A DNA stretch of 64,000 nt from Branchiostoma floridae (taxonomy: Eukaryota; Chordata; Leptocardii; Amphioxiformes; Branchiostomatidae), in assembly GCF_000003815.2 (NCBI RefSeq), contig NC_049990.1, positions 6,136,330-6,200,329 of the forward strand. The letters run 5' to 3'. The stretch's first letter is position 1; each line of letters opens with the position of its first letter. The notes under the pieces are model-generated. The model saw only the letters and a list, made by a program, of their open reading frames with translations. It did no database searches and was not told the DNA's origin. Below are positions 24,363 through 64,000 of this stretch, piece after piece. A program made the position numbers and the translations under genes.

Positions 24363-24583
24363 AGTTCACAATTATCCGTGGGGTAACCTAACGTTGTATC
24401 TGTTAGTTTCAAAAACAGGGTCTTCAGGGATATCAAGTCAACGGATGGTGGTTTCAAACTACAATATTTTCAACAATATTGAAGTTTTAAACCATGTATA
24501 TGCAAAATCCGTTGACTTGATATCCCTAAATGCCGGAAACAGTGGATATAGGTCACCCCGCAGATAAAGGTTAACTAGCGTAA
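24363..24583. mobile_element. CACCTTTATCC-family MITE, copy 1
   Basis: Foldback of about 220 bp. The termini have the form ACGCTAGTTCACCTTTATCC, then GGGGTAACCTATATCCGTT; inner arms carry GATATCAAGTC and its inverse. Seven copies are in the window; see 34,913 for the insertion site. Confidence 0.75.
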
Positions 24584-31000: not shown

Positions 31001-34000
31001 CGGTGTCAAGTTCAAATGGCAATATTTAAAAAAAAACGCAGTTTACAGTTTGCAATAACTAGCCATTTACTTACACTAATACCTAAATACACTGTTTTTG
31101 AAAACAACGGATATAGGTTACCCCGCGGATAAAGGTGAACTATCGTTAGGTTGGCAAGTACGAAAATTGAAAGAACTTACCTTTCATCTTCACTGTAGTT
31201 TGAGTACCTCCTGGCTTTGTTGGCGGGGACAAATCTAGGTTTCAAGCAGAAACAAAAATTTAACAATTACAGCTGTATTCTGACAATTACATAATGTCTG
31301 TTAATTTTGTTTTCCCTGCAACCACAAATTTGAACAATTCCAGTCATAGCCATCTAAGCAATGTAAAAGTTTATAATACCAGTAGGTAAAATGTTAGATA
31401 AAATGTGACATAAAATAACAATCGTCACAACTAAACACACTTTTTCAATATACATATGGAACTTCTCCTAAAACTTTAATCTATCAATTGGATCTGTATA
31501 AAACTTAAAGTTAACCTTTGAATTTATCATAATACACTAACTACATGTCATGTACAGGTACTGACCCAATGATGGCAGGGTAGGATCCGTCAGGCTTGGT
31601 GTCATCTAGGGTAAACTCTACAGGACAGTCATCGTCTTCAATCACACCCATCCCTGACATACCTGTAGATAGCATTGAAAACATAATCAATTATCCAATG
31701 ACAGTTTAATTTTGTATATGTTAACTGAATCTTTTCTGCAAGACTTGTTGTGACCTGTACTTAGCCCGGTGTGGCAAAAATGTGCAATAAAGGTTTTCAA
31801 TCAATCAATCAATCAACTAATTGGTCCACTCTCTAATGTGTTTCAATAGCCTGACAAGTTGCTTCACAGTTTGCAGAGAATAAAGGAGAATGAAAGATGA
31901 GAGTCAGACCAATGTTAAGACTAGATATTTTGAATAAACCTATGAAAAACATCAACTGCAATCTTTATCTTTTCAAGAATATCAAAACTTAACTGGAGCT
32001 TAATCAGAGTGTTGACTACTTAAGAGCTAATCTCCAAATTACCATAACTAAGGACAAATGCAATGTACAAAAGATAGTAGAAAAAATACGAGAATAAAAT
32101 ATTATTACACAGAAATACCTACCCTTCTCTGTCCAGTAAGCCTTCTCATAGTACATCATGGTTTTGATGACAGAACCCATGGGCATGCGCTGGATCATCT
32201 GGTTCCTGACTGGGGAGAGGGGAGGGCTGAAGGACAGCCTCAGCTGCAGGGGTGGGGGGATGGCCACAATGGAGTACTCTGCCTGGGAAATAAATCACAA
32301 AACACTGTAAATTCTGTTACAAAGATTTATCAAATAGAGAGCAGCTGTTACTAAATAACTCATAATTCACTGGAAGGCATTTCAGCACTTGGGACAGGAT
32401 GTTATGTTTTTATGATGTATCCTCCATTTTGTGCAGCATTTTATACAATCTACTAGACACTAACCAAAATCTAGAAAAAAACACACTAAAAATTCCGATT
32501 TCAGGAAGGCATGGAAGCAAGCATAGACAATGAATCAAAGATCATTCTCGTAACTTTATGAAATATTCAGTTTTTTTGTTGTGAATTTATTGCTTTGTTT
32601 GTTATTGTGAATTTCCTGCATTTTCTGCGTGGTTCTAGCCGGGTATCCAGCCAAAATGATAGCTCCTACTGAAGAGTCTCTTCTGTCCTCTCCGCAAATA
32701 CGGACTTGTAGAGGCTGGATACCAGGCTAGGGTACATGTGGTTCTGTTCATTTCCCTGACAGACCAGCTTTGAATTTGACTCCAGGTCAAGCTAAACTCC
32801 TATACTCCTAGTCTCTGGTTACACAACTTCTGCCTCACATCTTGTCACTGTAAAATATTTACATAACTAAGGACACACATCAGGACAAACAAACACACGG
32901 ACAAAACAAAAACAAGGCCTCTGGATTATTTTCTTGGAGGCAACTAACGAGGATGGTACCCAGGAACAATGTGATCCACTTTCAGTCTGGATCCTGAAAA
33001 AAATTACCTCAAGGATTAGTCTTCAGTAACTATCGTTACCTGAAAACTGTCTCCGCTCAGCGTATCCACGGTGACGCCTGTCTCAGTTTGTGTAACTTGG
33101 AGACGGAGCTGTTCAGCATCACCCTGTTGCCTAGCAACTCGGCCAGCCGCAGACTGACCTGCTGCGTGCCGCCCACCAACTTCCTCTCCTAAAACAGTAA
33201 TCATTGATTTTAATGAAAATTACTACATTTACTTTAAGCTATTTTGGTTCAGATCCTTCTTATTAAGTCCTGGAAAAGAGTCCAGAAATAGTACAACACA
33301 AAAGCATGGATCTGGCAGCAAATAAAAATTAAAGTGATCAAAGGGTATGAGTTCCTTAAGTACTAGAGGACCAGAAATTAATAATAGCAACAAGGAGTTT
33401 AAAGAGCCTTCAGTTGGCAGCATCGAGTAAATGTGGAGTTGAATGGGGTGTACTGGCAGTGCTCTTTGCTAATTTGCGTGCTAATTTCAGAAAGGCTGCT
33501 TCAGATGTATCTGATGAGCAGGCTGGGTTTGCTTTATGCTAAATTTAGGCACCAATTTTAACTTAAAAGTTTAACGTAGCATGCACCGCATGGGTCTGGC
33601 TTGAATTACAACGCTAGATTACCTTTATCCGTTTGGTAACCTATATCCGTTTTTTTCAAGTACAGGGTATTTAAGGATATCAAGTCAACGACGGTGGTTC
33701 TAAACTGCAATGTTTCAAAAATACAGATTGTGTATTGCAATTTGTTGCCACAGTCCGTCGACTTGATATCCCTAAAATCGTGTTTTTAGAAACAACGAAT
33801 ATAGGTTACCCCGCGGATAAAGGTGAAGTAGCGTTAACAGTGCCTGATTATTTTTTATTTGCCTGATTATACTCTGCTAAAAAGTACATGGTACCGGAAA
33901 TGGGCAGAGTCAAAAATAGCAACGCAAATTCCTAATACTAGTTATTGTGTTGTAATTGGGATAAATTACATGTCTGCTAGGGGACTGACCTGCAATGAAT

Positions 34001-37000
34001 TAGGAGGGGCTTTGTGAAGTATTATTATCATGGTATATGCATAATACATTACATAAATGTCTGTTGTCTATTTTTCTACCAAAGGCTTCAAGCTTAATGA
34101 CTATCACAAAATTCCAAAATCTTTACATGTTTCAAATTCTAAAATCATCTTTCTATTTGAAATGATCTCCTTAGCAGAGGTTAACACTGCAGTACCACAA
34201 TATGTAGATAGGGGGCAATGTAGTCCCCATCTCACCTGGCCACCATTATCAACAGAAAATATTCTCTTCACTCCTAAAGAACAAGGTAGAATAAAGTAAG
34301 GTGTTAGGTTAGAAGTGACTCAGTTCAAAGACACCAAGCTATGAATGAGTGACACCAGCTATAAATGATTGACATGTAAGGGCTATTCCATGTAAAAAGT
34401 GGGGATGTAGAGTCATTTTTTTCCTGTCACTGACATTTTTAAAATCATTTTTCTCCGATCTCGCGAATGCAGTAGTTTTCTTTTCTATTTTTGTTTAGTC
34501 AATTCATCCTCCCAAATATTCCTCCCAATGCAATTATTTCACCCTCAATACATGTGGTATGTCATCGAATTTTACATTTTGTAATCTCCTTTGTGTTACA
34601 GCTAGGATCTTCAAATTTTCAACTTAATTCCACCCATTTTAATGGAATAGCCTTTCTTAAGCATAAAGAGTGAAATTGTTAGTTTTGCATAAAACTTTGT
34701 CAAAGCATAGAATCATGATGGACCATTTTTCCCCAGGATCAGCTGAGCTTCACATCTAATATTTTTCACAACCGAACAAGTCTCTCACTTTAAGTGACCA
34801 AGATTATTTACATGTACCTTAAGTACTAGAGGACCAGAAATTAAGCAACAAGGAGGTTAAAGAACCTTGGCAGCGCAGATGTCGAGTAAATGCGGTGTTG
34901 AATGGGGGTGTAATGCTAGCTCACCTTTATCCGTGGAGCAACCTATATCCGTTGTTTTAAAAGCAGGTTGCTTATGGATATTAAGTCGATGGACAATGGT
35001 TTCAAGTTGCAGTGTTTTCAAAATACAGCATTTTGAAAACAACGGATATAGGTTACCCCGCGGATAAAGGTTAACGAGCATTACTGGCAGTGCTCTTTGC
35101 TAATTTCAGAAAAGTTACCTCTACATATCTGATGAGCAGGCTGGGTTTGCTTTATGCTAAATTCGGGCACCAATTAAACAAACCAACAAACCTTCACTTT
35201 TCACTTTTTACTTTCACTTATTCCTTGTAACATGTGGTCATAATGTATAGACTTTGAAACAAAATACATTCAGTATCTGACAACTTTTTCTTCTTTTCTC
35301 ATCAAGCACAGCAAGCATGACCTTGCTTACAACTATCTCCTGACCATGGTGTGAAGAAGGTCGGTTTGTACTGTAAGATTGCTAAGCCCATCTCCTACAC
35401 AGGGACATAAAATGCCAAAACGGCCTGTCTGGATGTACCCTGCTTTCCCAACTGTCACTCTTAGTTCCTGTGGGCGTTGCCACAAACCAGCTATCAGAGA
35501 ATAGCCTTTCAGTTTCAAAAGGGATCTCGCATATACATAAGGGCAAGCTCATTAATATCTATAAGCAGGGCGGTCAGGAACTAAGGATGACGGTTGAGAA
35601 AGCAGAATACATCGAGTTTTGCCATTGGAGGTCCCTGGGTAGAAGGATGATACGGAATTTCAGGTAAAGATTTGTACTGGAAGATTGCTAAGCCCACCTC
35701 CACACTGCCTGATGTACCACAGGAACCAGAGAGCGGAAATCTCGTGGGGCTCCGACGTCACGTTGATGTGCACAAACATGTCCGCAAATCTCCGCACAGA
35801 GCTGGAATTGCAGGCAAAAAACCGGCTTTTATCAAAAACAGATTTCATTTTCTTAAGAAACATCACTTTGCTATTTGTCACCAGAACACTTTTAATGATG
35901 TCTAGCTGTAAACAGAAAGAAAGAAAGACAATTCAGTCATTTTGTGCTGCAAAGACTTTTTAATGTGAATAAACCACAAACCACTATCTATTAAGAAATG
36001 CACTGGACATACATTTATGTTCATTTATATATTGTTTCCTTGGTTTGTTTATCGTTTAGTTTATCTTATTTCTTTGTTATGCTATTGTGTGTATGTTGTT
36101 TGTACAGGGCACACCTGAAAAGCAGTACCCAAAGTACTGAGTGTGTCCACCCTGTATAAAGAAAACAGAAATAAATAAATAAACTGCAAAGTTTTAGATA
36201 ACAATTGGGGTGGGACATTGAGGGTATGGAGTCTTACTCACCATTTAATGCATTGTATACTTAAAGATATAACTACTTCAGTATGTTTTTGTTTGGCTTA
36301 CCTTGTCCATACCAGTTTATCAAACACATCTTTCATGGTTATTCTGTCCCATTCTTTAGCATGCAGAGCCTGCCACGGTGCCTCGACTGGGATCTGGGGA
36401 CATAGGGATAAATTGAGGAGTGAGTGAGAGAGTGAGTGAATAAATGAGTGAATAAATGAGTGAGTGAGTGAGAGAGTGAGTGAATAAATGAGTGAATAAA
36501 TGAGTGAGTGAGTGAGAGAGTGAGTGAATAAATGAGTGAGTGAGTGAGTGAGTGAGTGAGTACGGGAGTGAGTAAATGAGTGAGTGAGTGAGTGAGTGAG
36601 TAGGGGAGTGAGTAAATGAGTGAGTGAGTGAGTGAGTGAGTAGGAGAGTGAGTAAATGAGTGAGTAAGTGAGTGAGTGAATGAGTGAGTGAGTGAGTGAG
36701 TGAGTGAGAGTGCGTGAGTGAGAGTGCGTGAGTAAGAGAGCAAATGAGTGAGTAATTGATTGAATAAATTAATGCTATTAACCCCCTGGTTTAACTTACA
36801 GTGCTGTGCAGACTACAAAATGACTCCCCTCTTTACTGTCTTGCCCACCCTTTTACTGGCAATGACTCACAAGTACACTTAAGAAGACACTGACCTCAGC
36901 CCCCATCCTGTCCATGGTCCTGAACAGATGTTGTAGGTCCAGTAGACATACGGGATTGGTCACTGCAACCTGTTCTGAGTCAACTGTGAACTTCTTACCC

Positions 37001-44360: not shown

Positions 44361-44859
44361 TCCATTAATAATATGGCTTAAAGTATTAAAAAAACCTGCA
44401 ACTTTGCAACATGAGCTAAAATTGAGTATAAAGGATTATAAAAATGTTGGTGTCTTGTCAGGTGTGCCCAGAAGTTTGCTTTTCATCAAAAGACTGAAAT
44501 TGTTACTCTCAGTACATGACAATTAAGCTTTGTCTTGTTTACATATAAAATATAGACACTCTCTGTCTCTGATGCGGGTTGTCTACACATGTGCCTTGAC
44601 TGGTGCTGCTCGTATTTGCCTGTTGCACAGAGCCACCGTGATTGTCCCAGACGAGCGAAAAAAGAAATTTACATTATCATGGTGTTATAACCATCCATCC
44701 ATAAACAGAGACTAATCACTTACCAGATCATTTTGACAATCGTCCCTTGACAGCATTTTGCAGTTCGAGACAGAGAAAAATAGAAAGCATCACTGGATTG
44801 TCCTTTACCAACAGAGAACAGGATACCCATGCGCTTTGGATACCCAATTACTTGACATA
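44361..44859. other. No feature recognised
   Basis: AT-rich non-coding sequence between the duplicated block and the next MITE. Confidence 0.4.
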
Positions 44860-45088
44860 TAACACGTTGGTTCACCTTTATTCGCAGGGTAACCTTTCTC
44901 CGTTGTATTTAACACCAGGGTATTTCGGGCTGTCAAGTCGACGGACAGTGGTCTCAAATTTATATCTAAAAAAAATGCAATTTGAAACCTTGCACCTTCC
45001 ATCAACATGATATCCCTAATAGCTAAATATCCTGTTTTTAGGTACAACGGATACAGAATACCACACAAATAAAGGTGAGCAAGCGTTA
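44860..45088. mobile_element. CACCTTTATCC-family MITE, diverged copy
   Basis: TAACACGTTGGTTCACCTTT at the left, AAAGGTGAGCAAGCGTTA at the right; inner GTCGACGGACAG block. Confidence 0.65.
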
Positions 45089-56130: not shown

Positions 56131-56350
56131 TAACGCTGGTTCACCTTTATCCGAGGGTGACCTATATCCGTTGTTTGTAAAAAAAAGCGTATTTAGGGAT
56201 ATGAAGTCGATTGACGGTGGTTTCAAATCGGAACATTTAAAAAATATTGCAAATTTGAAACCACTGCCAGCAGACTTAATACTCCTAGATGTGCTGTTTT
56301 TAAAGACAACGGATAAAGGTCACCCCGTGGATAAAGGTGAACTAGCGTTA
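56131..56350. mobile_element. CACCTTTATCC-family MITE, complete
   Basis: TAACGCTGGTTCACCTTTAT and GATAAAGGTGAACTAGCGTTA; flanking TA at both ends. Just upstream of the coding start exon of the next gene. Confidence 0.85.
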
Positions 56351-56456: not shown

Positions 56457-57177
56457 ATGGAGAGAAGGAAGGGAAAACCCTCGGACCCAAGAGGCCTCCT
56501 GGCCAACAAACCAACAACGACTGCAAGGGCACAACCCTCCACCATGATGAGTCTATCGTTCTGTGCTATCTTCATAGCTTCCGAAGTTGCCAAGCAATCC
56601 GTAACATATGCCACAAGACATTTCAACAACGGGGTTTACCCCATATCGTCCTCTGCCATCGTGTGCTGTATTGAGCTCGTCAAGTTGATAATGGTTTTGA
56701 TACCGGTTATGTTTACGACTGGTTTTTCCTCGTTTCGGCCTTCCATCGTGTTTGCCGTGCCCTCTGTTATATACTGCGCGAACAACAACTTGTACCTGTT
56801 CGCCCTGAACTACACCACCCCTCCCACTTGGAATGTGCTGATCCAGTCTCGCGTCATCATGACGGCACTGACCTACAGGATCATCTTTGGCAGACACGTG
56901 AGTGATACGTTCTACGGCAGGCTCTAACAAGTTTTGTACAATTCACCTGTCCTATCGGACGAGTACATAAAGATTTTACTTGCCCAAACCAACTTTCCAA
57001 TTGGCCAAAATTCAAATAACATTTTTCTACGTTTTTTTACTTCCAGCAACTGAATTCTTTCATCACTGGCTCTATTTTTCTGCGTTGAGCAAATGCTTGA
57101 TGCCATGACTGTAAAATGTGACAAGTATATCAAAATCTTACTCAGGAAAAATCCTACTTGCCCGATCGGTCAAAACG

Positions 57178-57252
<75 letters not shown>

Positions 57253-60200
57253 TCTCTAATGTAAATGACCAACATAGTTAAACAAGCGTAAAGCGGGGTA
57301 ACCCTCACGACCTGACATAACTGATGATGGGAGGGGGGGGGGGAGCCATGAGTCAAACCAGATGGACCAAACCAGACTTCCAATTCTGCAAGTATCCTAT
57401 TGTACCATTTTCGCCTTATGCCCTACCACTCGGACACAGCGCGGTCACACACCATGACAAACAAACAAACAAACAAACAAACACATAAACTGAAAACAAT
57501 ATTAATACCTTCATTTTCATGGTGGTGATAGCTAGTGGACCTAGTCTGTGTAACACAAACTATCCGGGCTGTAACTTGGGGTTGGCTAGATGTTGGTCGG
57601 GTCGCTGTAATCGTGATTTAATCAGGTATAGATTGGACCGTGCCACTTTTATGGTTAGCAAGTGTCGAGGAAACACAAACCAAGAAAACAAAACAACAAT
57701 TTCTTATATCTGTTTTCAAAACAAAACAACAATTTCTTATATCTGTTTTTTTAATTCTTATTGTTAAGATCTTCCCATGGTCCGTAGCCATGGACTTTAT
57801 TTTTTATTTACAATGTTACAAAGACGTTACAAGAAACACTCCTCAGTGCACACTCTTGACGTTATTGTTCCAACATACTTTCCGTATTTGTATTTTGAAA
57901 TAGTGTGTTTTCCAATCATTATCAGCATGTTTATATTCTGAAATTTGACAACATTATAGAGCTTATAGCCAACAATGACATGATGCAAGTCTAATGATAA
58001 AGATGTACCATAATTTTCTGTTCTCAAAAGATCTCAGTAGTCCGCTGGGTAGCGCTGCTTCTCCTGATGCTGGGCATCGCGCTGGCGCAGTTGGCCGGGT
58101 CCTCCTCGTCCCCAGCGTCCCCAGACATCTACGTGCTCCCCCAGGCTCTCGGGCTCAGCCTCGTTAGTGCCGCCATCTCCACAGCAGCCTCCATCATCAC
58201 AGAGGTAAGAGGATTTGTTTGTTTGTTTGTTTGTTTGCATACACCTCGTCCCCAGCGTCCCCAGACATCTACGTGCTCCCCCAGGCTCTCGGTCTCAGCC
58301 TCGTCAGTGCCGCCATCTCTACAGCAGCCTCCATCATCGCCGCCTTTGACCATGACTTTATTCAGATCCACATCTAGCATACAACGCCAAATAGGAAAGG
58401 GGAACCACTTGCATTTGCTAGCAAGTTATTTTAATAGTGTTTATAAACATGTATACATGTAACACCAATTCACCTTTATCCGCGGGGTAACCTATATCCG
58501 TTGTTCTTAAAACATGGCATTTAGGGATATCAAGTCGACGGACGGTGGTTTCAAATTGCGATATTTTTTTACAATATTTCGGTTTGAAACCGCTGTCCGT
58601 CGACTTGCTATCACTAAACACCTGTCCGAGTTTGAAAACGACGATTATAGGTTACCCCTCGGATAAAGGTGAACTAGCGTTACAGTGTACTTTGGCCCAC
58701 AGTACTTGTGGGTGGTCATCCATGGAACTGCAGGTAAAACAGGGCGGGGAATCATGAGTACTGGCTACCAAATGTTGGTTTGAAGTGTTTATAGAGCACA
58801 ATGTATGTTTGGTCCACAGTACTTGTTCAAGAACGACAAGCGACCGTTCATGGAACAGCAGGTACAGATGTACGCCTTCGGCTTCCTCATCGCGAGCATC
58901 TGGTCCGCCGTCGCTACCAGGGGTGACGTCTTTAAGATTAGCGGGGAATCTCTAAGGTCCGAAATAGTCTTCCTGTTGGTGGCATCCATTCTACTAGGTG
59001 GCGCCGGAGGACTGGCTGTTGCAGGTATGGCACATTACAAGTCTAAGGACCGATCCCAAAACCCCGCCCCCTGTTCGATCATGGTTTTATTTCGAACACG
59101 TACGTCAAAAATAGCCATTTCTGTCCAATGGGGCAGTTTTCGACGGAGGTGTTCGAAATAGTTTTTATCTGTTCGATATGGCGTTCGACAGGATCGGTCC
59201 ATTCTGAAGTGCGCAGTTATGACATGTAATAACCCCTGCATGGTATACATATAGGAAAATATATTAAAGAATGTCTAGACGCTAGAAATCCCTCCAATGA
59301 TTGTAAAAGACCATTTTCATCCCATACTATGCACGCTTGTATTAAGTAGATTAGCCTTATAGAACTGTAGTTATGTATCAGTAGATGCATGCTTTGTACT
59401 TTGTACAATTTTTGCGCAATAGTTTCCATTAACATCCATGGGAAGGTGACCTTGAGGAAGCAATGCAATTTTTTTTTCAAAATGAATTTGCACTGGAAAA
59501 TGTTGATAATCAATCTGTTCCCAATGCATGCATTTTGGACGATTACAATCTAGTTTGCTTTTTAAAATCCAATATATAACCTCGCTCTAAAATCCCCAGC
59601 CACACTGTTGACGAGCTTCGGCAGTATTTTTTGATCGCCAAAAGGTCGGCCGATTATAGAATCGACCAAGGTTTGAATGTACTTTTTACCTGAAAACCCA
59701 TCCCATGAGACGAGACTTGGGGACGAGCGAGCATCGGCCGATCTGTAAAAATCGAGCGATAATCTCAAGAACACCGGGCCGGGCGTATGACAGCCGAAAG
59801 TGTCATTTCAGAGCTCATAGACTCGTCTGCCGATCAGTTTTCCTGCCCATAACGTATTCTGATGCCCTCTTGTCGCTTACAGCGATCATCAAATCGTTGG
59901 ACAACATCGTGAAGATCTACTCGGCCTCCATCTCCATCCTGATGACCGCCATCGTCTGCAGCTTCCTGTTCCCAGAGAAATTCGTCCTCAACACCGCCTT
60001 TGTCTTCGCCGTGCTCCTGATCCTCGTTTCCTCCGTTCTGTACGACAGGCAGGACCTCAGCAACATCCTCCCGTCAAACGTGCGCGTACCCAGATTCTTC
60101 CTCACCAGAAACTTCTTTCTCTTCGTGGCCTTTCTGACGATGCTGGTGCCGATAGGATACTTCATGGCAACGACTTCCTCGTCAACAGCAGACGTTCACA

Positions 60201-61007
60201 AAAGAGGCCTGAACACAATTAAGGGTGATCCTTTGTACGCAATGGAAGGCAAGGCCGCGAACGGAGAATCTGTAAAAATTCATCTTGATGCAGGCAAGAA
60301 CATCCAAGCGGTTCTGTTCGAGAATGAAGGCGTGGCTTTGAAAGACGAGGATGGGAAACTACAAAGACAGTTTGATGCAATAAAGGAAAGGAAACTGAAG
60401 CAAGAGCAAAGCCAAGTAAAGAGGGATAAGCAAGAAGACGCCAGTGACAAGGAGGTGCCAAAACGGTCAAGAAGGAAAGAAGATGTACAGAAAGATGAGG
60501 ATGACAGAAAACAGGATGCGGAGGCGAAACGCAGGCACGGTAATGATAGTGAAAATCCCCGAAGAGCTCATCCAAAACTGGTGAAAGTAGAAGACAGAAT
60601 ACGGGCCCTTGAAAAAGATCGCGCAGAAAAACTAGACAAAATCATGCACGGAGCTCCGGAAAAGAAACAAGTCATGCACAAAATGCACGGTCATGGCCAG
60701 GAGATGAAAGTACACGGAGAAAAAGAGGACAGCGTTGTTCACGGCAAAGACGGACAAAAAGACGAAGAGCTTTATGATAAAGGACTTGAGGAAGACGTCG
60801 AAAATGTAAGAATCAAAAATCGCCGAAAAAGTTTGAGGAAGGACACCCAACAATTCGCAGACACCAGAGATAAGAACAATGTCGAGGATTTGGTGGCAAA
60901 GTCGGGGACGGAGGTACCAAAAGTGGTCCACTTTGTTTGGGACGGTCGCAGAAATTTTCGGTTCCACGACCTACTCAGTGGAAGAGTGCAAAAAGCATCT
61001 TGAACCA
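56457..61007 (+). CDS. Nucleotide-sugar transporter fused to a glycosyltransferase (partial)
   Basis: Exons 56457-56897, 58031-58204, 58820-59024 and 59883 to the gap at 61,008; phases 0, 0, 1 all fit. Residues 1-334 are an SLC35A-type Golgi nucleotide-sugar transporter: NNLYLFALNYTTPP, IMTALTYRIIFGRH and SLDNIVKIYSASISI line up with the family's conserved blocks. The last exon then adds an eleventh hydrophobic helix (about 345-369), a charged Lys/Glu/His-rich stem (370-610) and VPKVVHFVWDG..FRFHDLLS (from 618), the first strand of a Gly_transf_sug/DXD-type transferase. With transporter termini cytosolic, helix 11 would place the transferase in the Golgi lumen. SLC35A subgroup and sugar unknown. 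At 60,977 the frame shifts: the next frame continues VEECKKHLEP up to the gap. The catalytic part is missing here. Confidence 0.85.
57179..57249. repeat. (AC)n microsatellite
   Basis: About 35 uninterrupted CA units in intron 1 of the fusion gene. The intron also holds an ACAA repeat at 57,462-57,483; nothing else was recognised between 56,898 and 58,030. Confidence 0.95.
58244..58338 (+). pseudogene. Partial copy of fusion-gene exon 2
   Basis: 95 bp repeating 58,104-58,198 at an offset of 140 with only three differences in the aligned core. All three are third-codon-position, silent changes (GGG/GGT, GTT/GTC, TCC/TCT) in the frame of the real exon. A GTTT repeat separates the copies. It lacks the exon's own donor and its frame ends at TAG near 58,376. 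Confidence 0.85.
58460..58682. mobile_element. CACCTTTATCC-family MITE in intron 2
   Basis: TAACACCAATTCACCTTTAT and GGATAAAGGTGAACTAGCGTTA-type ends (TA flanks); inner GTCGACGGACGG and inverse. Confidence 0.85.
58684..58737 (+). pseudogene. Decayed copy of fusion-gene exon 3 start
   Basis: GTGTACTTTGGCCCACAG/TACTTGT and ATGGAACTGCAGGTA parallel the real acceptor and exon start at 58,802-58,865 (GGTCCACAG/TACTTGT, ATGGAACAGCAGGTA), with internal loss. Confidence 0.6.
59047..59200. mobile_element. Short MITE with perfect 10-bp ends
   Basis: GGACCGATCC and GGATCGGTCC bound 154 bp in intron 3; the interior repeats TTCGAACAC/GTTCGAAATA. The remainder of the intron to 59,882 shows nothing recognisable beyond short inverted words. 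Confidence 0.7.
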
Positions 61008-61107
61008 NNNNNNNNNNNNNNNNNNNNNNNNNNNNNNNNNNNNNNNNNNNNNNNNNNNNNNNNNNNNNNNNNNNNNNNNNNNNNNNNNNNNNNNNNNNNN
61101 NNNNNNN
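61008..61107. other. Assembly gap, 100 N
   Basis: Round-number gap (size probably unknown) directly after the start of the glycosyltransferase domain. Confidence 0.95.
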
Positions 61108-61119
61108 TCACTTGCATTA

Positions 61120-61409
61120 AGTTCTAATAGGGGGATCCTAGCAGAAATATACCTCTACTTAGTGCTGAACACCATCCATATTACAGAAATATGCCTGTCC
61201 ATAGTATTGAACACCATCCACAAGGACCACATCAGATGCCTGGCCTTAGTAGTAAATGCCGTTCACCTAACAAAAATACATCTGCCCTTAGTACAGAACA
61301 CCATGCACCTAACAAAGACATATCTGTCCTTAGTACTGAGCACTATTCACCTCACAAAATATGCCTGTCCTTAGTACTGAACACCATCCATAATACAGGG
61401 ATATGCCTG
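61120..61409. repeat. Degenerate tandem repeat, unit about 45 bp
   Basis: About six units built on CTTAGTACTGAACACCATCC, ACA and ATATGCCTGTC, lying between two 100-N gaps. Confidence 0.8.
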
Positions 61410-61509
61410 NNNNNNNNNNNNNNNNNNNNNNNNNNNNNNNNNNNNNNNNNNNNNNNNNNNNNNNNNNNNNNNNNNNNNNNNNNNNNNNNNNNNNNNNNNN
61501 NNNNNNNNN
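61410..61509. other. Assembly gap, 100 N
   Basis: Second round-number gap, bordering the tandem repeat. Confidence 0.95.
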
Positions 61510-61600
61510 AGCTCTGGTACCGCATCTATAAGCAGCGACGCCAATATTTCGGCGGTGCAATGTGGAACAGTTTGACTTGACCTAATTCCTCCCTCCCGTT

Positions 61601-61760
61601 AGGCAAAAATCTATCGGACGACGAGTCTGCGAGCTCTAAATTACGAGGAGGCATGACCCTTCTGCTGACGAAGAAATGGCAGAGTTCCACCTTCCCGTCA
61701 GGGTCATGCCTCCTCATAATTCAGAGCTCGCAGACTCGTCGTCCGATCGATTCCGCCTAA
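61601..61760. mobile_element. Hairpin MITE, about 160 bp
   Basis: Arms AGGC..ATCTATCGGACGACGAG..GGAGGCATGACCCT pair almost perfectly (about 58 bases each) around a loop of about 35 bases. Confidence 0.8.
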
Positions 61761-62084
61761 TGTGAGGGGGGTATAAGGAAGGTGTCAAACGTTCTCTGAA
61801 ACTTCGGCAAAAAATACATCTTTTCTGAAAAAGAGTCTCATTACTCAGTGGCGTACCGATCTGTTGAAGCTATTCCCAAATATGTAAGTCGATACTCTTA
61901 GTTGAATCTGATAATATGACAAAATACATTACCAAATTTTCAAGTTTCTTTCACAAATGGGAACTTTAAACCGCAATGAAACACTCACCAAGTACGTCTT
62001 TGACACAGGTGAACATCGTAGTTGGATCGCAAGATCCCTCAGCTCCTGCGGGCAAAATAGGATTTAAGAAGCTTTATCATATAG

Positions 62085-62195: not shown

Positions 62196-62393
62196 GAATT
62201 TCCATTGATACCAGTTGATGTCGATTTGCATCGACACCAACTTCGTTCACTTGGTGGTTTTATTCGGTGGTTATAGCAAAGGCCCAGGCATTATGACACC
62301 ATATACACCTCGGGTCGGGTCATAAACCCTTAATTGTTTTCCAAAACACCAAACAATAATAACAGAACGGTCCTAATGGATTTTATATTGTAC

Positions 62394-63533
62394 CTGGTAA
62401 GTCGTAAGCTCGACAGCTGCAGTTGCTGACCACGTGTTTGCTTCTGCACTCTAGATAGCAGCCGTTCAGCGTGTAGGTGTCGTAATACTCCAGCTGTAGG
62501 TCCTGGCAGACCCCCCACGGAGGCACGTGGTTCTCGTACTGGGGAGGGGAAATGTTGAATAATGTTACAGTCATAATGTACGTAAAATGATGTGATCGTC
62601 TTAGGATCTCCGTGATCAGTTTCATTCATCGATAATTTACATTGTGGAATACAACTCTTACATTTGGGACAGTACTGTAAACATCGCATTAAATACTAGT
62701 GACCATGTATATTTATCAACAAGCTTTCACATTGTATCCTTATTGCCAAATACGTTGTAAATGCATTTAGGTTTGCGGGGATTTAATTTCGCGGTAGCGG
62801 GAAAAAGGACTTTTCACGGTGGTTTTAATTTCGCGGTAACACCATAGTCTGCAATCTAATACCGTAATAGAAAAATGTTCGCGGTGGATTTAAGTTCGCG
62901 GTAAAGTGGCCCCCGCATCCACCGCGAAAAAAAATCTACCGCGAACATTTCTGCATTTACAGTATGTAATTTACACCTGTTTTTGAAAGACTTGAAACCA
63001 AACTTAAAATATTTCAAAGCTAAAATTGCCAATATGCCAATGATAGATATCCCTTAGATACACCTGTTAATTCAATTACAGATCAATGATCAATGATTGT
63101 TACCCTTCTCTCTTTCACCCAGTTTTGTTATACCTCATGTAAATGTCTTTTTCCATTGTGCTCCAATGATGTACATGTTCGTCTTATTATGTATTANNNN
63201 NNNNNNNNNNNNNNNNNNNNNNNNNNNNNNNNNNNNNNNNNNNNNNNNNNNNNNNNNNNNNNNNNNNNNNNNNNNNNNNNNNNNNNNNNNNNNNNNGGCG
63301 CCTATCCTGCAGTACAATGCAAACCTGTTTTAAGTACCATTACGAAGGTGGCAGACGGTCAGTTAGGTTTGAGGTCCTACCAATGTCTGCTTGACGGCAA
63401 TGAAAGCGCTGTTGCCCGGCGCGAGGGCAATTCCTTGGGTGTCAATCATGGGAGGTTCCCTCGGATCGTGCACCAGGAGTTTCAGTCCGACTTCAGAATT
63501 CCCACCAACGGAAAAACTTTCGGTGTATTGGTC
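62394..63533 (-). CDS. ASIC/degenerin-type sodium channel, two internal exons
   Basis: Exons 63381-63533 (51 codons, phase 0 both ends) and 62394-62538 (48 codons plus 1 base) with good AG/GT borders. The first encodes GLKLLVHDPREPPMIDTQGI and ALAPGNSAFIAVKQT, the palm/beta region of the extracellular domain. The second encodes VPPWGVCQ, TYTLNGCYLECRSKHVVSNC and SCRAYDLPG, the Cys-rich thumb block characteristic of ASIC/ENaC/degenerin trimers. The N-terminal exons lie beyond the right end of the window. The C-terminal exons (second membrane helix) were not found to the left, where gaps and the opposite-strand fusion gene lie. Subtype unknown. Confidence 0.85.
62755..62963. mobile_element. GCGGTGG-family MITE in the channel intron
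   Basis: TGTAAATGCATTTAGGTTTG at the left and CTGCATTTACAGT at the right; 209 bp. Confidence 0.8.
63197..63296. other. Assembly gap, 100 N
   Basis: Round-number gap inside the intron between the two channel exons. Confidence 0.95.
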
Positions 63534-64000
63534 CTGTAAAATTATGATGACCATCAGTACAATGTAGCAGCCAACAGTCTATCTTATGCTGTGATCAAAA
63601 TTCACGCCGGTGCCCGTCGGAGATATGTAGCCCCGGCCCGGCTCTGAAGCTATAAATTTGTCCCAGTGGACTGACGGATATACCGCGGGGGTACCTAACA
63701 GTGTTGTCACGGGTTGGTCACGGTGTCTTTTTATTACCGGGTATCACCGGGTCCCGGATTGATTTTAATTCCAAATTCAAGAACTAGAATCCGGTGCCCG
63801 GCTGCGCCCAATATAACCGGCTAGTCGCAGAGTGTCCGACGGGGCCATGTAGGGACCACGCCCGAAAGTGCAACAAAACAGCGAATGAACGACCCGCTGG
63901 GGCCCCTACTTCCAATTCAAACTCTTGTTTGTTCTATGGAAAGCAACCGCCAATTTCAACTAGAATTGGATGGATTCCAGGAGTAATGATGAACATGACC
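63534..64000. other. No further exon recognised
   Basis: Intronic or flanking sequence of the channel gene, GC-richer than average (CCGGGT, CCCGG words); no exon supported. Confidence 0.4.

Follow-up and report, generated by a model that had tools for sequence, protein, structure and literature searches.

A 64,000-nucleotide stretch of the Branchiostoma floridae genome (NC_049990.1, positions 6,136,330 to 6,200,329 of the forward strand; hereafter the window, numbered from its first letter) contains a gene in which a nucleotide-sugar transporter appears to continue into a second, transferase-like part. Support is good for the transporter and for the joint; most of the enzyme would lie in or beyond an assembly gap. 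The transporter, an additional eleventh helix, a long stem and the first-strand motif of a transferase are present in one open reading frame. The best reading of the locus, to which we give a probability of roughly 0.55, is a single Golgi membrane protein made up of a transporter, a crossing helix, a stem and a luminal transferase of the GT32 type. Beyond the parts seen in the frame, we infer a complete and active transferase domain, a Golgi location and a local hand-over of the donor sugar.

Results

An SLC35A-type transporter

Residues 48–327 of the translation match PF04142 over profile positions 23–314 of 315 (E 1e-29, 104.1 bits against a cut-off of 27), and ten hydropathy peaks precede residue 327. 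Sequence comparison with solved structures identified as relatives 6i1r (CMP-sialic acid transporter 1, E 2.9e-28) and 6oh4 (CMP-sialic acid transporter, E 6.7e-15), whose alignments span all three exon joins and reach residues 326–337. We take 6i1r and 6oh2/6oh4 to be the maize and mouse proteins. When residues were read from the alignment, Tyr98, Ser188 and Tyr214 of mouse CST were found to be conserved, and Lys124 and Asn210 were replaced by Arg132 and Gln219, respectively. In the mouse CST structure (PMC6508934), Lys124 contacts the sugar carboxyl or phosphate, and a part in recognising the base is considered for Asn210 and Tyr214. The locus encodes a transporter of the SLC35A type that looks intact and for which transport of nucleotide sugars is the predicted function; its sequence does not single out one sugar. 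A scan of viral contigs with the transporter gave one locus (L001), which was rejected, its open frame resembling, in our judgement, an RNA-phage replicase and not a transporter.

Gene structure and the joint between transporter and tail

Four exons were identified (Table 1; slashes mark exon ends). The lengths of exons 1–3 (441, 174 and 205 bases) preserve the reading frame, and the joins are GT-AG and in phase. An initial annotation, made from the letters of this stretch, had the upstream exons joining in phase, and the splice sites and phases of exons 1–4 bear this out. The start codon has a good context, GACATGG, judged against the consensus. The gene structure is confirmed to position 60976, and the joined translation comprises 638 residues.

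The initial annotation had further placed the fourth exon at 59,883–60,977. A stop-free stretch within one contig was indeed found there, but the proposed end did not stand. The splice donor that it implies at 60978 (TCA/GTGGAA) was rejected: on a simple donor table it scores -6.54, ranking 32nd of the 52 GT sites in exon 4, and the reading frame stays open past it as far as the stop codon at 61001–61003. On the same table the other three donors of the gene score 4.13, 6.05 and 4.41. The end given for exon 4 is that of the open frame, with a frame break near 60975 and the contig edge at 61007.

Helices 9 and 10, helix 11, the charged stem and the sequence VPKVVHFVWDG all fall within this stop-free stretch of one contig, in keeping with the earlier claim that the end of the transporter, an extra helix, the stem and the motif share one exon. 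Because no in-frame stop occurs until 61001, an unspliced exon 4 cannot yield a transporter ending at helix 10 and must add helix 11 and the stem. No methionine occurs between residue 294, in helix 9, and residue 360, in the middle of helix 11. A stand-alone type II enzyme anchored by helix 11 would therefore have no start codon in exon 4, and a transferase starting within this exon was rejected. The segment between helices 10 and 11 has just three GT sites, with a top score of -0.62 at 60080. The fusion had also been claimed to be no product of a gene predictor. Given one exon, one contig and the methionine-free interval, this holds as far as the stem and the motif. It does not extend to a complete enzyme: the window contains no catalytic DXD, the splice donor proposed earlier is a poor one, and the reading frame is interrupted some 30 bases short of the assembly gap.

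Coding evidence for helix 11 and the stem

The 302 codons that follow the transporter are free of stops, whereas none of 2000 dinucleotide shuffles was (mean 11.9 stops); the other two forward frames over the same codons contain 14 and 18 stops. Codon-position asymmetry in the stem reached 62.5, compared with at most 19.2 among 1000 shuffles. On these results a chance open frame was rejected. The proportion of guanine and cytosine (GC) at third codon positions was 0.72 in helices 1–10, 0.74 in the link and helix 11 and 0.40–0.47 in three stem segments; the final 26 residues had 0.62. The shift is located after helix 11 and does not coincide with the transporter's end, and may reflect a different origin or a looser evolution of the stem. 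A search of the stem against the PDB gave no match. The stem contains a single N-glycosylation sequon, at residue 494.

Membrane topology

Hydropathy analysis of the whole translation gave eleven hydrophobic peaks. With the N-terminus placed in the cytosol, 18 lysine and arginine residues fall in the six cytosolic loops and 6 in the five luminal loops. Both termini of mouse CST lie on the same side of the membrane, thought to be cytosolic (PMC6508934), so an eleventh helix would place the tail in the lumen. A chain with eleven helices and a luminal tail fits the sequence, and this arrangement, already proposed in the initial annotation, agrees with both the hydropathy and the distribution of charge.

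The transferase motif

The sequence VPKVVHFVWDG (residues 618–628) corresponds to the first-strand motif of transferases of the GT32/Gly_transf_sug type. One match to the motif was found in the six-frame translation of the window, where 1.4e-4 matches would be expected to a loose form like it and 1.3e-7 to a tight form. Viral contigs were scanned with a degenerate DNA pattern for PK[IVM][IVM]HF[IVM]W, which identified 30 loci. Twenty-five of these run on to a GGxYxDxD sequence that ends 69–78 residues past the motif tryptophan; two more (L013 and L026) end at a contig edge and appear to belong to the same family, and the remaining three (L003, L017 and L031), with frames of 17, 9 and 44 residues, look like chance matches. 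Nine of the 25 loci bearing a DXD were tested in Pfam, and all nine match PF04488 above the cut-off, the matched stretch starting 6–48 residues past the tryptophan. The specificity seen in the viral loci, combined with the low chance expectation, makes VPKVVHFVWDG a good, if provisional, mark of a GT32-type domain. On the spacing in the viral relatives, the catalytic DXD should lie about 70 residues past the motif, in or beyond the gap that begins at 61008. The transferase identity is less certain than that of the transporter, because it is based on one motif, without a match in any profile library.

A viral GT32 profile was built from 20 distinct viral relatives, over their first 45 positions, and has no animal members. 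It recognises the motif alone at 18.2 bits, a circular result in that the loci had been selected by the motif. The 38-residue transferase start gave seven weak and irrelevant matches in the PDB (best E 0.19). A DNA pattern for the end of the motif followed by the continuation seen in the window (FxFH at a fixed spacing) had a single match in the genome_contigs set (L032, in a 70-residue frame), which looks like chance and was discarded, and no match in the viral_contigs set. The earlier assignment to a transferase is supported for the first-strand motif, which is specific in the viral loci, and not beyond the first strand, where the window contains neither a DXD nor a match to a transferase profile.

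Table 1 Features of the fusion gene and of its 3' end (window positions)
Feature	Position	Strand	Basis or remarks
Exon 1	56457..56897	+	Start codon; residues 1-147, helices 1-4; donor CAC/GTGAGT, phase 0
Exon 2	58031..58204	+	Residues 148-205, helices 5-6; AG acceptor; donor GAG/GTAAGA, phase 0
Exon 3	58820..59024	+	Residues 206-273, helices 7-8; AG acceptor; donor CAG/GTATGG, phase 1
Exon 4, as open frame	59883..61003	+	Acceptor TTACAG; first in-frame stop 61001-61003; ends at stop codon in the assembly
Helices 9 and 10, residues 285-326	59915..60040	+	Hydropathy; PF04142 and PDB alignments extend to this region
Helix 11, residues 351-369, predicted to cross into the lumen	60113..60169	+	Hydropathy peak 2.19; basic flank on N-terminal side
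Charged stem, residues 370-617 (248 residues)	60170..60913	+	Composition, codon-position bias, open frame
RSRR, putative furin-type cleavage motif in stem, residues 468-471	60464..60475	+	Pattern match only
VPKVVHFVWDG, GT32/Gly_transf_sug-type first-strand motif, residues 618-628	60914..60946	+	Comparison with viral loci
SVEECKKHLEP, other frame, to contig edge	60975..61007	+	Possible continuation after an indel; not supported by viral profile
Assembly gap, 100 N (round figure)	61008..61107	.	Sequence; catalytic part expected to begin here

The broken end and the sequence past the gap

After FHDLL, the assembled frame reads SGRVQKAS and then stops. The break is likelier to be an indel near the contig edge than the splice donor assumed in the initial annotation; a real truncation is possible. 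Past the gap, a 42-base tandem repeat occupies 61142–61409 and is followed by a second gap at 61410–61509. On the minus strand, two segments belonging to a gene for an amiloride-sensitive sodium channel (ASC family) match PF00858, at 62383–62625 (E 2.1e-9) and 63363–63578 (E 1.8e-7), and this gene runs towards the fusion gene. With this layout, any remaining transferase exons would have to be sought within the gaps, within the short pieces of sequence that separate them, or interspersed with the sodium channel gene.

Flush with the second gap, on the plus strand at 61510–61582, is a frame that reads LWYRIYKQRRQYFGGAMWNSLT and then stops. It is a possible candidate for the last exon of the transferase, and had no match in Pfam. 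Directly after its stop lies a long imperfect palindrome (61581–61778; 77% over about 200 bases), which is probably a foldback element.

Other repeats in and around the gene

A 140-base tandem duplication at 58104–58383 covers part of exon 2, with 95 bases that are 96.8% identical; the second copy is intronic and lacks a matching donor. The duplication may be real or may be a merge of haplotypes. Copies of a short element whose ends are inverted (GGTTCACCTTTATCC...) are dispersed in the window, one just 5' of exon 1 (56131–56350), one in intron 2 (58454–58689) and others near 24365–24581, 31079–31148, 33607–33842, 34905–35084 and 44857–45019. The element is probably a miniature inverted-repeat transposable element (MITE).

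Discussion

Proposed working of the fusion protein

The protein would begin with a complete ten-helix antiporter of the SLC35A type whose C-terminus is cytosolic, followed by a short cytosolic link, helix 11, the stem and a GT32-type domain. Helix 11, its basic cytosolic flank and the stem resemble the anchor of a type II Golgi transferase, so that the simplest origin of the gene would be a transporter gene and a transferase gene that became joined in frame. In the proposed mechanism, the transporter would import a nucleotide sugar into the lumen, and the tethered enzyme, held at a fixed 1:1 ratio in the same cisterna, would consume the sugar near its exit. The nucleoside monophosphate left by transfer (via a diphosphatase) would then drive the next exchange. 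That import and use of the donor are coupled in one chain by a real hand-over is proposed only tentatively, by analogy with the Golgi assemblies considered below. The same holds for the built-in channel from import to transfer suggested in the initial annotation.

Weighing of the evidence

Several results weigh against such a protein. When the 38 C-terminal residues are read through the frame break and compared with Pfam, PHROGs and NCBIfam, they match no family; the PF04488 model is hardly reachable here, because the window holds at most 23 residues after the motif tryptophan, and most of the stretch that it matches would fall in the gap or past it. No DXD of the GT32 type was found in any of the six frames of the window, with loose patterns included. 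Against the viral GT32 profile the residues after the motif are not distinguished from shuffled tails, of which 1495 in 2000 scored at least as high, in what is a weak test confined to viral relatives. With codon usage learnt from the transporter, just one of six segments past residue 337 shows a preference for the reading frame, again a weak test, because the composition of the stem is unusual (43% D, E, K and R over residues 370–638). Without assuming an indel or a splice that has gone unseen, the frame ends at 61001, and the furin-type site in the stem could separate the two halves of the protein. The stop and the missing DXD also favour a transferase relic, in which the protein ends at 61001 or otherwise has no catalytic domain and is a transporter followed by a crossing helix and a long tail in the lumen. 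The assembled frame indeed ends nine codons past the last shared residue of the motif region, and the 42-base repeats past the gap are not coding sequence. However, contig edges are generally prone to error, and one lies about 30 bases from the break; another frame remains open to that edge and the motif is intact. We regard a relic as unlikely.

The fusion may instead be real but work without a donor hand-over, its stem being cut in the late Golgi at RSRR or serving as a loose tether, so that the joining would provide anchoring and co-delivery at a fixed ratio. The RX[KR]R site and the 248 mostly charged residues of the stem point in this direction, and the length and charge of the stem, together with the cleavage-like site, fit an enzyme that is loosely tethered or can be released no less well than a tight channel. 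The site is single, however, and the lysine that follows the cut is not ideal; we give this explanation about the same low weight as a relic. Two genes, or two transcripts, are less probable still. Here a splice that leaves exon 4 before helix 11 would give the transporter, and the enzyme would be made from an upstream exon of its own spliced into exon 4. Helix 11 and the stem are the equipment of a stand-alone type II transferase, third-position GC falls after helix 11, and exon 4 contains one fair donor, at 60806 (AAT/GTAAGA, 3.32), the others being weaker. Yet exon 4 has no in-frame stop that would end the transporter and no methionine before helix 11, the three GT sites between helices 10 and 11 score at most -0.62, and third-position GC is still at its transporter level through helix 11. 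A chimera of two loci in exon 4, created by the assembly, is very improbable. Three 100-N gaps lie nearby in this draft, and the tandem copy overlapping exon 2 is a possible sign of merged haplotypes, but the join is inside one contig and within a continuous stop-free frame of 302 codons, which a random join would rarely keep. A single transporter–transferase protein remains the best reading.

Comparison with known systems

Both parts of the proposed protein have known counterparts. It shares with SLC35A transporters full-length homology, ten helices and the Tyr98, Ser188 and Tyr214 residues of mouse CST; it differs in carrying Arg and Gln in place of Lys124 and Asn210, and in that the chain, which in SLC35A transporters ends in the cytosol, continues through an eleventh helix into the lumen. 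With GT32/Gly_transf_sug enzymes (PF04488) it has the first-strand motif [IV]PK[IV][IV]HF[IV]WxG in common, and with type II Golgi enzymes a helix plus a stem. Here, in contrast, the anchor is transporter helix 11, the DXD region is not seen and the sequence after the motif departs from the viral profile.

Golgi transporters of this family are already known to associate with transferases. According to PMC6453868, SLC35A2, SLC35A3 and SLC35A4 interact with MGATs, and its authors propose that sugar passes directly to the enzyme and that the monophosphate drives the next import; they add that direct proof of hand-over is lacking and that the interaction surfaces are first to be found. SLC35A2 is also described, in PMC9368800, as associating with UGT8, B4GalT1 and B4GalT4. 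A natural transporter–transferase fusion was not recognised in the open-licence PMC literature among the matches listed; a plant transporter–epimerase construct joined via a 2A peptide (PMC4268804) does not belong to this type of fusion. Since non-covalent complexes and the idea of direct transfer have been published, the novelty would lie in the covalent form, a new order of two familiar parts, for which 'not known before' is a weak statement.

Whether Golgi sugar importers hand their cargo straight to transferases or merely fill the lumen is an open issue. A natural fusion, if true, would fix the pairing, so that the substrate of one half would indicate that of the other; cutting the linker would give a direct test of hand-over, and the protein would offer a ready-made design for glycan engineering. 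In the non-covalent SLC35A–transferase assemblies the two functions are likewise adjacent in the Golgi and direct donor transfer has been proposed, but the partners are separate chains, whereas here they would form one chain, with a transferase of another family. The hand-over proposed for those assemblies would then have been fixed in an animal gene.

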